A stretch of DNA of 45,923 nt from Armatimonadota bacterium. Its GTDB lineage: Bacteria; Armatimonadota; Zipacnadia; UBA1398; JAKPQA01. The position numbers and the translations under genes are program-made. Positions within the stretch are counted from its first letter, which is position 1. Every line of letters starts with the position of its first letter. Under the pieces are notes generated by a model. That model was not told the DNA's origin. It made no database searches and worked only from the letters and a program-made list of their open reading frames with translations. This document shows, piece by piece, positions 28,623-43,096 of the stretch. The DNA lies in contig JAKPQA010000023.1 of NCBI GenBank assembly GCA_029547025.1, positions 1 to 45,923 of the forward strand. The letters run 5' to 3'.

Positions 28623-30764
<2,142 letters not shown>

Positions 30765-30858
30765 CGCCAATCCTTCCGCGTCCTCGCGCGGCCGCGGTCG
30801 ATGCCATCGCCCCGCTGATCCGGCCGAGGCGTCTCGTGAGTGCAGGTGTGTCCTCACC

Positions 30859-32754
30859 CTAACCCCCATCGGCGGGCGAAAAACGACCCCGCGGCCCCGC
30901 GTGGCGGCGACGGACGAGCTCCATGAACTCCCTGACGTCGTCGCTTGTTCTCTGCTCCTCGGGGGGAATCCTCGCGACCCGCTCCCGCAGCTCCCGGAAC
31001 CGCTGTTCCTCCCAATGATCGCGAACCAAGTCGAGCTGCTGGAGAGGGAGACCTTCGGCCTCGTGGATGCTCCCCGGCAGGACAACCTCCCCAAACTCCT
31101 CGGCCGCGGCGGCACTGAGCGCCGAGAGGATCTCGGCCCCGGCAACCGCAGCGCCGCTGGCCCAGGCTCGCTGCAGTTCGCGGGCGATCTCCCGCGAGAC
31201 CGGTCGCAGGAACCGATCGGGCGGGAGTTCGCGGAAGATCCGTTCCGCATGGCCGCGGTCGGCCAACGCCGACCGCAAGAGCACTCGCTCTGCCTGCACC
31301 ACCGCCGGCCGCAGCTCTGCCGTGGCGCCCTGAGACACCGACTCGACGACGAAGCCCCGGTCGCGCCTGGGGTCGACCGGCCGCGCCACGGTCCGTGAGC
31401 TCTCGCCCTGCGCGGCTCCCGAATGCGCCCGCAGGCGCTTCCGCTCCGACAGGCGGAGCTGCTCACCCAGAGCTCGCTCCAGGCTGGCCACCCGGCCGGG
31501 GTCTGAACCGGCCAGACGGCTCGCCGCATAGGCTATGTAGCCCGAGCGGGCCACCGGCTTGCGGATCGCCGCCAGCAGATCGGCGATCTCCTCGGCGGCA
31601 CGCTCCCGGCCCGCCACCCCTTCAGACGCCCGAGACGCGACGATGTGGTCAATGGCGAAGTGCACCAGAGGCACCGCCTCGGCCACGACCGCATCGAACG
31701 CTGAGGGACCGCGCTCCCGCAACAAGGAGTCCGGGTCCTCCCCGGCGGGCAGAACCGCGACCTCGACAGGCAGTCCGGAGTTCTCCAGGCTCTCGGTGCT
31801 GCGCAGCACGGCCCCCTTGCCGGCCGAGTCGGCGTCGTATGCGACGATCACGCGCTGGGCCAGCCGGGACAGGGCTCGTACGTGATCGGCCGTCAGCGAT
31901 GTCCCCAGCGTGGCCAGCACATTGGCACGGCCGGCCTGGTGAGCCGCGATCACGTCCGTGTAGCCCTCCACGACCACGGCAACCCCTGAGCGGCGAATGG
32001 CTTCGCGGGCCTGGGCCAATCCGTACAGCGTTTTGCCCTTGGCGAAGACTGCCGACTCGGGGCTGTTGAGGTACTTGGGCTCCTCATCACCGATGGCACG
32101 AGCGCCGAAGGCCACCACTTCACCTTCGAGATTGGTGATGGGGAACATCAAGCGACCGCGGAAGCGATCGTACGCGGCTCCCGTTTCCCTGGGGACCAGG
32201 AGCCCAGCGGCAACCAGTTCCTCCTCGCTAAATCGCTTCTTGGCCGCATCGCGCAGCCGATGCCAGTCGGCCGGTGCGAACCCGAGTCCAAACGCCTGCA
32301 CGCTGGCTGAGGAAATGCCCCGCCGGGCCACGTAGTCCCTCGCTACAGCCGCCTCAGGCGCCTCAGAGAGCACTTGAGCAAAGAACCGGGCCGCGAACGC
32401 GTTCACTCGACACAACTTCTCGCGAACCGAAACCTGCCCGGGCGGCTCCCCTCTACCAACATACCGCAGACCATAGCGCTGTGCCACGCGACGGGCTGCC
32501 TCATGGAATGGAATTCCGAGGAGCCTTTGCACGAACTGGATCGCATTGCCTGCCGCCTTGCACCCGTGGCAGTAGAACATCCGCTTGCTGGGTATGACAT
32601 AGAACGACGGCTGCGTCTCCGAGTGGAACGGGCATGGAGCTTTGAAGTCCTTGCCCGCCCTCTTCAGAGGGACGTACTCGGAGACCACGTCGACGATGTC
32701 GGCGGCCTCGACGATCTCCGCCGCAGTGGCAGGTCTCTCGGCGGAATGAGCCAC
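30859..32754 (-). CDS. dnaG: DNA primase DnaG
   Basis: Makes RNA primers at the replication fork. The N-terminal CHC2 zinc finger ([11 protein letters not shown] ... [10 protein letters not shown]) is followed by the RNAP-like core ([32 protein letters not shown]) and the TOPRIM domain, with [16 protein letters not shown] and [14 protein letters not shown]. The C-terminal helicase-binding region runs to residue 631. The GTG at 32754 has GGAG 6 bases upstream and starts [20 protein letters not shown], a usual primase N-terminus. It precedes rpoD by 94 bases, the classic dnaG-rpoD order. Confidence 0.97.
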
Positions 32755-41059: not shown

Positions 41060-43096
41060 CTAGCCGGGGCTTCTGAGCATACGCGTGCGGGCGATCGATG
41101 ATGGATAGGCGGCAGCGCCCGTCGGGGGCGGATTGTCCGGCGCGATGTGGGTCCAATGGATGGTGACGGTCGTGCCGTCGTCGACGCGTGAGAAGCTGCG
41201 GGCGGGGATGTCCCAGTTCGCGGGAAGCGTCTCCGCCGGCAGCAGGCCGGCGGTGCCGTAACTCGCCGACCAGTGTGAGGTCGTGGTCCCCTCCGAGTCG
41301 GTACGAGTCAGGGTGCCGTCGACGTTGATGGAGGCGCGGCGCTGCACGGTACCGGCGTCGAGATCGAGCTGGAATGCCTGGATCAGGGCATTCGAGTCGC
41401 TATCACGATCTGCGCCGCCGCGGGCGTCCAGCGAGTAGTGGACGAGCTCCCCGCCGTCGACCACATCCCACTCGCCGCCGATGTTCCAGGTGATCTCCCA
41501 GTGCTCGGGTTGGAACAGGGCATAGCCGGACGGGGTGGGCATGGTTACGGGCGTACCGTCGATGTCGGCCCGAATCTGGTGGAGGAGGGCGCGTCCGTCG
41601 AAGACGGCCTGGATGGTTCCATCATAGCGGCCAGGCCGCTCCACATCGGCGTCGAATCCTCCGCTGAAGTGGGTGAGCGGCACGGGGTTGCTTTCGAGAT
41701 GGTTCACGCGAACCCGCACATCACCCACCAGTCCGGTGGTGCCCCGCGGGAAATCGCCCTGGACATAGAATGGTTGCCAGACCGCAATTGTCAAAGGTGT
41801 TTCATCAACAAGAATCTGCCCGCGCGTGCGGCCGAAGTAGCCGTTCAGCCAAACATTGGCCCGGGACGACTCCGTTTCGGGGTGGAACACGCCGCCACTG
41901 ATCACGGGGCACAGCGCCGTCCTCTCGTCATCGGCGCTGGTGGGCCGGAAGTACTCGAGGTCAGATGTGTCTCCCTGGGGCGACACGTAGCGTGTCCAGC
42001 CGCGGCGGTCCAGCTCTCGCCACACGTCGTCGGCGGTGAAGGGACGAGTGGGCGGGTCCAACGGGTGCGTCACGTTGAGGCCGCTCATTCGGTCGAGGGC
42101 CCACAGGGACCACGCCGTGGCCCGACGCACCGGGGCGGGCCCTCGCCAACCGAGGACCAACTCGGTCCCCATGTCACAGAGCGACGCGGCCAGGTCGGTG
42201 TAGTACGTCAGGCTGTTGCAGGCGTTGAGCCAGACGATTCCGTGGCTTGCCATGGGGTTGCAGTAGTGCTCGAAGAACCGGCGGGTCACGGCCATTGCGC
42301 GCACGTCCTCGACATGGTCGCCCGTCTTGTCGACGGAGAGGAACACCATCCGGCCCTCGGCCAGGTCCTCAGCCCAGGCGGGATTGGGCCCGTCGGCGGC
42401 CTCGTACCGCTCGGCGGTCTGCAGGGCATAGATCGGCACGTCGCCGGCGTCGGTGGGCCAGCGTCCCCATCCACCGTGACCGGTGAAGTAGATGACGCCG
42501 CAGTTGCCCCAGTTTCGGAACCAGTCGATGGTGGCCGTGGGCACGGCACTGGGTACCTGGTACCCGGCGACATGGTATGAGTCGAGCACACGCTGACATG
42601 CCTGTTGGATGGCGGTGTACAGGCCGTTCTCGTCGTAGGAGGCGGCCGCGGTTGCGGCCGGCGTATCCTGCGAGGGGAACCAGCGGGTGGTTACCGGGTG
42701 AGCAGACAGATCGCGCACGGCGCCCGAATCGAGCAGGCTATCCAGCGTAGTGCCCGTCTCGGTCTCCGGGCTGTCGCAATGGTGGAGAATGTGGACCACG
42801 CCCGAGCGGTAACGGACCGATGCATCGCCGGTGGTCTCGTCGACGGAGACGCTCACGACCTCGGCATTGGCTTCAGCCGCGGCCACAAAGGCCTCGGCGC
42901 TACCGGGCCAAGGAGCCGAGTCGCAGGCCTGGTGGAACGACTCAGTGACCGCGTCGGCCGCGTCAACGGTGGCGGTCAGCGGGCCGGTCGTATCGCCGCC
43001 GCCCCCACCACCGGGGCCGCCGCCGCAACCGGCCCACACGCAGAGGCCGGCGAGAGCGAGGGAGAAGACGACCGACGGACCCATGCGACTGACCAT
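41060..43096 (-). CDS. Lipoprotein with caspase-like His/Cys dyad
   Basis: A 678-residue lipoprotein. The signal is MVSRMGPSVVFSLALAGLCV with lipobox WAGC (Cys24), followed by a Gly-rich linker. Residues 190-300 match the clan CD cysteine-peptidase pattern: a strand then GHG (His207) in VIYFTGHGGWG, and a later strand then NAC (Cys293) in IVWLNACNSLTYY. The distance between His and Cys is about 86 residues, longer than in classic caspases but with an inserted region (YALQTAERYEAADG and FLSVDKTGDHVEDV). The remaining C-terminal region, from about residue 430, is beta-rich, probably binding or adhesive. The ATG at 43096 has GAGGGCGG upstream. Substrate and role are unknown. Confidence 0.65.
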   Translation of the reverse strand: MVSRMGPSVVFSLALAGLCVWAGCGGGPGGGGGGDTTGPLTATVDAADAVTESFHQACDSAPWPGSAEAFVAAAEANAEVVSVSVDETTGDASVRYRSGVVHILHHCDSPETETGTTLDSLLDSGAVRDLSAHPVTTRWFPSQDTPAATAAASYDENGLYTAIQQACQRVLDSYHVAGYQVPSAVPTATIDWFRNWGNCGVIYFTGHGGWGRWPTDAGDVPIYALQTAERYEAADGPNPAWAEDLAEGRMVFLSVDKTGDHVEDVRAMAVTRRFFEHYCNPMASHGIVWLNACNSLTYYTDLAASLCDMGTELVLGWRGPAPVRRATAWSLWALDRMSGLNVTHPLDPPTRPFTADDVWRELDRRGWTRYVSPQGDTSDLEYFRPTSADDERTALCPVISGGVFHPETESSRANVWLNGYFGRTRGQILVDETPLTIAVWQPFYVQGDFPRGTTGLVGDVRVRVNHLESNPVPLTHFSGGFDADVERPGRYDGTIQAVFDGRALLHQIRADIDGTPVTMPTPSGYALFQPEHWEITWNIGGEWDVVDGGELVHYSLDARGGADRDSDSNALIQAFQLDLDAGTVQRRASINVDGTLTRTDSEGTTTSHWSASYGTAGLLPAETLPANWDIPARSFSRVDDGTTVTIHWTHIAPDNPPPTGAAAYPSSIARTRMLRSPG

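Follow-up and report, generated by a model that had tools for sequence, protein, structure and literature searches.

The catalytic histidine of clan CD cysteine peptidases is described as preceded by glycine, and eight families were listed in the clan in 2025 (accessible text of PMC12445089). The described systems compared here are the caspases, metacaspases and orthocaspases of family C14, the CHAT proteins (PF12770), the gingipains of family C25, and the paracaspase MALT1. Gingipains are type IX cargo (PMC7712824, in the text available to us), and for bacterial metacaspases the available text of PMC3501461 gives a localization as unassignable for 529 of 671, with extracellular action already raised. 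We analyzed a 45,923-nt stretch of an Armatimonadota genome (the window), in which a single open reading frame on the minus strand (41060..43096; start ATG at 43096, stop TAG at 41060–41062) encodes the 678-aa protein P0001, with homologues that align over its full length. Taking sequence and model evidence together, we consider it likely that P0001 is an extracytoplasmic, lipid-anchored cysteine endopeptidase belonging to an unnamed clan CD family. This would add an unnamed, exported caspase-fold group to a poorly studied phylum, together with a concrete active-site prediction.

Export signal and predicted catalytic dyad

The N-terminus of P0001 carries a putative lipoprotein signal peptide (43025..43096, minus strand), in which a hydrophobic stretch precedes the lipobox VWAG-C24. 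The lipobox Cys24 is invariant in all 11 full-length homologues aligned (20–45% identity to P0001), and a PROSITE-style lipobox pattern is satisfied by seven of the 11 members, P0001 among them, which supports the lipid anchor proposed in the initial annotation. The Trp at position −3 of the P0001 lipobox is atypical and counts against a lipoprotein-peptidase reading. P0001 is nonetheless probably exported and lipid-anchored: signal peptidase II would cut before Cys24, and the lipidated cysteine would hold the protein at the outer side of the membrane.

The predicted catalytic histidine, His207 (G-H-G; 42476..42478, minus strand), sits in GVIYFTGHGGW and the predicted nucleophile, Cys293 (N-A-C; 42218..42220, minus strand), in GIVWLNACN, with a hydrophobic stretch before each. 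Strands 199–205 and 286–291 of the structural model directly precede the two residues, confirming the placement that the initial annotation had given them, and both residues are invariant in 11 of 11 aligned homologues. Other invariant columns of the 11-row alignment include C24, Y179, T227, T271, F274, W317, N341, P348, and R351. Gly208, which follows the histidine, is conserved in at least 90% of the rows; a glycine before the histidine is present in P0001 and in only seven of the 11 aligned members.

In the wider family, 55 distinct rows comprised 48 with both His and Cys, three with neither, and four fragments not reaching the sites. The 48 include truncated duplicates of L004 and L008 and represent 46 genes, so that among 49 distinct genes readable at both sites 46 keep the pair, three lack both residues, and none has one alone (for L009, L031, and L039 the entry counted is a piece of an interrupted or split gene). 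Because His207 and Cys293 are invariant in the close homologues and are jointly kept or lost in the wider family, the conserved dyad is not a matter of chance. This conservation and joint retention or loss, together with the caspase-type fold of the model, support the match to the clan CD dyad that had been claimed from the letters of the gene.

The three genes without the dyad carry Tyr/Ser (L033) or Leu/Val (L035 and L036, near-identical copies) at the two positions; Tyr/Ser is given as the commonest swap in bacterial pseudo-orthocaspases in the accessible text of PMC6426788. A tree built from 44 catalytic domains sets L035 and L036 within a starred clade of eight, six of them live, and L033 apart from it, on a long branch whose placement is unsure. 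The separate position of L033 makes two independent losses of the dyad likely and a single origin less so. In one genome (G206), a dead copy (L035) coexists with a live one (L055). All three dyad-less members are still open frames, so loss of the dyad need not entail loss of the fold, and this bears on whether P0001 has kept a caspase fold to serve, without proteolysis, as a cell-surface adhesin or scaffold for peptides or glycans. Its long beta-rich C-terminus would suit such a role, as would its neighbours in the window, which by domain matches are a polysaccharide deacetylase, an alginate lyase, and, divergently oriented, F5/8C domains. Against it, 46 of the 49 genes, P0001 included, keep both residues and none keeps one alone, and we judge an adhesin or scaffold unlikely. 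For the endopeptidase that we favor, the naturally dead members would allow catalytic roles to be told apart from binding roles.

Modeled fold and domain architecture

An AlphaFold2 model built on the 11-row alignment (pLDDT 77.7, pTM 0.74) contains a predicted caspase-fold catalytic domain at residues 141–397 (41906..42676, minus strand), to which fold matches and profile–profile comparison also point. Local pLDDT is 92 for the ten-residue block with His207, and 85 and 81 for blocks 281–290 and 291–300. The 86-residue stretch between His and Cys holds a hairpin and strands 250–255 and 265–270 in the model. Foldseek matches were weak: an HLA complex (E 8.7e-4) was alone in reaching E ≤ 0.001, and MALT1 followed (5e-3). 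VIA-align of the P0001 model was run on 996 Foldseek chains, of which 92 reached Z ≥ 8. Among the best 50 of these 92, residues 141–397 matched DdvA (Z 12.3), CHAT proteins (SAVED-CHAT, 11.8), RgpB (11.7), separase (11.2), caspases (caspase-7, 10.0), and MALT1 (9.9), with an overall range of 9.2–12.3; VIA-align does not state the fold class of the top match, DdvA, and without it the named caspase-type matches span Z 9.2–11.8. Two of the matches to residues 141–397 had poor rmsd values (7.0 and 21.6). Those of the 50 that lay outside residues 141–397 matched the TIG region described below (amylase/CGTases). The check by structure prediction and structural comparison that had been suggested for this gene thus found a caspase core, and the model supports a caspase-type fold for residues 141–397 with His and Cys at strand ends.

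The catalytic domain is preceded by a small alpha/beta region (residues 38–140; 42677..42985, minus strand), modeled with helices 38–60 and 67–75 and strands 80–105, which is a possible pro-region. It is followed by a predicted IPT/TIG Ig-like domain (residues 398–477; 41666..41905, minus strand) on the evidence of Pfam, the family profile, and fold. P0001 alone had no Pfam match, and Pfam TIG was found at E ≤ 1 in seven of the 11 members (best E 2.5e-5) and in four of another 10 members, in one of them over the cut-off. The family profile matched 1qho_A at E 2.6e-8, and the corresponding fold match to 1qho had Z 10.1 and rmsd 2.0 over 76 aligned residues. More distant members have an Ig-like domain of the Glucodextran_B type instead (three of 10, two over the cut-off).

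The remaining domain (residues 478–655; 41132..41665, minus strand) is beta-rich and barrel-like, and may be a binding module. When the C-terminal 217 residues were modeled alone the same character appeared (pLDDT 78.6), so that the long beta-rich C-terminus noted in the initial annotation is found in both the full-length and the separate model. The fold search with this domain gave a best Z of 7.1, which is not significant. We do not claim an outer-membrane barrel: OmpW-type matches had Z ≤ 7.1, and the chain continues as a tail beyond the last strand.

Within the caspase core, His207 would activate Cys293 to attack a peptide bond, the TIG domain may serve as spacer, and a substrate or a cell-envelope ligand could be bound by the C-terminal beta domain. 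The outcome would probably be site-specific cleavage of extracytoplasmic proteins, possibly once the N-terminal region has been removed; both peptidase activity and the “surface” location are plausible. The same layout could belong to a clan CD enzyme of the autoprocessing or transpeptidase type, acting a single time to cleave or ligate a partner or the chain it belongs to instead of degrading substrates. Some clan CD families, e.g., C80, cleave themselves (PMC12445089, accessible text), and cleavage of this kind might set free the N-terminal region and the domains downstream of the catalytic one; with no partner gene shared across the 21 family neighbourhoods compared, we consider such an enzyme quite unlikely.

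Family distribution and genomic neighbourhood

A search with the single P0001 sequence gave matches in five of 61 genomes (its own plus 60 relatives), and a profile of 11 members (E ≤ 1e-5) found the family in 42 of 291 Armatimonadota genomes, at 61 places. Four candidates were scored per genome in the profile search, so copy numbers are lower bounds, and 10 of the 61 places lie outside the rows read. One further candidate (L003, E 0.044) was dropped as a valyl-tRNA synthetase by eye. Five family matches occur in genome G002, and the source genome has three members, on contigs C54, C42, and C202. In the tree of 44 catalytic domains the pairs formed by P0001 with L004 and by the C42 copy with L005 are on starred branches, and the C202 copy is unplaced; since the P0001 and C42 copies pair with different relatives, at least two of the three source-genome copies are old paralogues. 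In a relative of the same order, two members, L004 and L008, are adjacent and divergent (G002:C506:22832-27034). Genome G055 has interrupted family copies on contig C208 (L009 and L013) and two intact ones elsewhere. Between its lipobox and catalytic region, L005 (G034) shows dockerin-like repeats by eye; a Pfam dockerin match is absent, and we do not claim a dockerin there.

Homologues also occur in MAGs titled Proteobacteria, Propionibacteriaceae, and Methanoregula (L063, L064, and L065), where binning error is possible; all three have the H and C motifs by motif reading. Spread outside the phylum was sampled by seven loci, four of them from genomes already in the set. A broader proposal, tentative and on balance rather doubtful, is that these proteins form a new clan CD family of exported, lipid-anchored caspases that has expanded within Armatimonadota, one genome carrying at least five copies, and that in some lineages dead members (Tyr/Ser or Leu/Val) are retained alongside live ones, where they would act as decoys or regulators of cell-envelope proteolysis.

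Across 21 neighbourhoods in 12 genomes, only the family itself was common; no other component occurred in more than three, and the sole one found in three overlies the family gene on the opposite strand. Likewise, no shared neighbour gene hinting at a substrate was found in the 21 neighbourhoods. With no widely shared neighbour family, the P0001 gene acts alone, as far as visible. A role in defence was rejected, PADLOC giving one weak match (E 0.082) in one of 11 catalytic domains.

Elsewhere in the window (28623–31529, minus strand) is a gene for a primary sigma factor with Pfam sigma-70 regions r1.1, r1.2, r2, r3, and r4 and, between regions 1.2 and 2, two Big_5 Ig-like stretches. Such inserts are uncommon in housekeeping sigma factors. 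A 650-aa query from region 1.2 to the end matched 13 of 13 genomes, in 11 as a single piece across the insert and in two in several pieces; this outcome favors a lineage feature over an assembly error.

Comparison with caspase-type families

By itself P0001 matched no Pfam family at E ≤ 10, a single NCBIfam model far below the cut-off, and no solved caspase by sequence. None of the 31 family proteins scanned matched a Pfam peptidase family at E ≤ 1, and direct membership in C14 or CHAT was rejected on this basis; the only C14 match in the source genome at E ≤ 1e-8 is a different gene (G000:C100). Among 21 members searched against NCBIfam, the sole peptidase name was fusolisin, a serine protease, in a sub-cut-off match (E 0.0091) near the N-terminus of L056. 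Searches of the PDB by hmmsearch with 11- and 44-row profiles found no caspase at E ≤ 10, the best match of the 44-row profile being a flavodoxin (E 0.27). With respect to C11, C13, C50, C80, C84, and C123, the unnamed status of the family reflects absent Pfam peptidase matches, and separase is among the proteins matched by fold. No title or abstract opening returned by our literature search names the P0001 family.

For profile–profile comparison, the 44 catalytic domains (fragments and short or duplicate rows left out) were aligned with C14, CHAT, and C25 families from related genomes, alongside six reversed controls. Partial and interrupted loci were left out, leaving 13 of 15 loci for C14 (34 places found), 14 of 15 for CHAT (56 places found), and 11 of 15 for C25. 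Scores were 33.2 for C14 (probability 34), 32.6 for CHAT (27), and 24.6 for C25 (3), vs. 13.1–14.8 for the reversed controls, whose probabilities were ≤ 0.2. The C14 comparison (E 4e-4 for a single comparison) has both H and C in register, and the two residues stay in register in the global hhalign alignment, which gave no useful alignment to CHAT or C25. In the local CHAT alignment H is in register and the CHAT Cys falls on a different strand; the alignment to C25 keeps H in register and extends only past it. When the part from the Cys onward was compared alone, the score exceeded its control for C14 (20.5 vs. 9.1), did not improve on it for CHAT (14.9 vs. 13.6), and was little better for C25 (13.9 vs. 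11.3). Known pairs gave probabilities of 51.9 (CHAT–C14), 16.6 (C25–CHAT), and 3.2 (C25–C14), so the P0001 family is about as distant from C14, CHAT, and C25 as those are from each other. The His–Cys spacing is 86 in P0001 and 72–103 in the family, compared with 46–60 in C14 (n = 13), 31–41 in C25 (n = 11), and 40–82 in CHAT (n = 14) from related genomes; that of P0001 exceeds the C14 and C25 domains and reaches only the extreme of CHAT.

These comparisons split the initial suggestion of a gingipain-like protein. It holds as fold kinship, RgpB being one of several near-tied matches (Z 11.7, rmsd 3.5, 184 aligned), and presumed extracytoplasmic location is a further likeness. It fails as a family assignment, and C25 membership was rejected on Pfam, profile, and spacing tests: P0001 has no Pfam C25 match, C25 is the weakest profile match of the three families, and the spacing is 86 vs. 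31–41. P0001 also differs from gingipains in being a predicted lipoprotein. C25 genes do occur among relatives, with matches over the Pfam cut-off (L066–L080) in 11 of 41 genomes searched, yet the source genome is not among them and the same model finds nothing in it at E ≤ 1e-3. That P0001 is a true surface peptidase of the C25 gingipain family is therefore very improbable, and an endopeptidase of a separate clan CD family remains our reading.

CHAT proteins resemble P0001 in fold (SAVED-CHAT, Z 11.8, rmsd 3.5; Craspase TPR-CHAT, Z 10.8, rmsd 3.1) and reach a profile score similar to that of C14; they differ in that P0001 has no Pfam CHAT match and the Cys is out of register in the local alignment. 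MALT1 has the same domain order, caspase first and Ig-like next (Z 9.9, rmsd 3.5, 180 aligned), although most aligned ranges end at the caspase domain; since the Ig-like domain of P0001 resembles the TIG domain of amylases and CGTases, the shared layout may be coincidence. C14 shares with P0001 the caspase core (caspase-7, Z 10.0), with H-G and Cys at strand ends, the register of H and C in both local and global profile alignments, and inactive forms in which His-to-Tyr accompanies Cys-to-Ser (L033 here; PMC6426788, accessible text). P0001 differs in having no Pfam C14 match, a spacing of 86 vs. 46–60, and a TIG domain and beta-rich C-terminus. Beside the mostly unlocalized bacterial metacaspases, a family built on a lipoprotein signal would provide a clean case.
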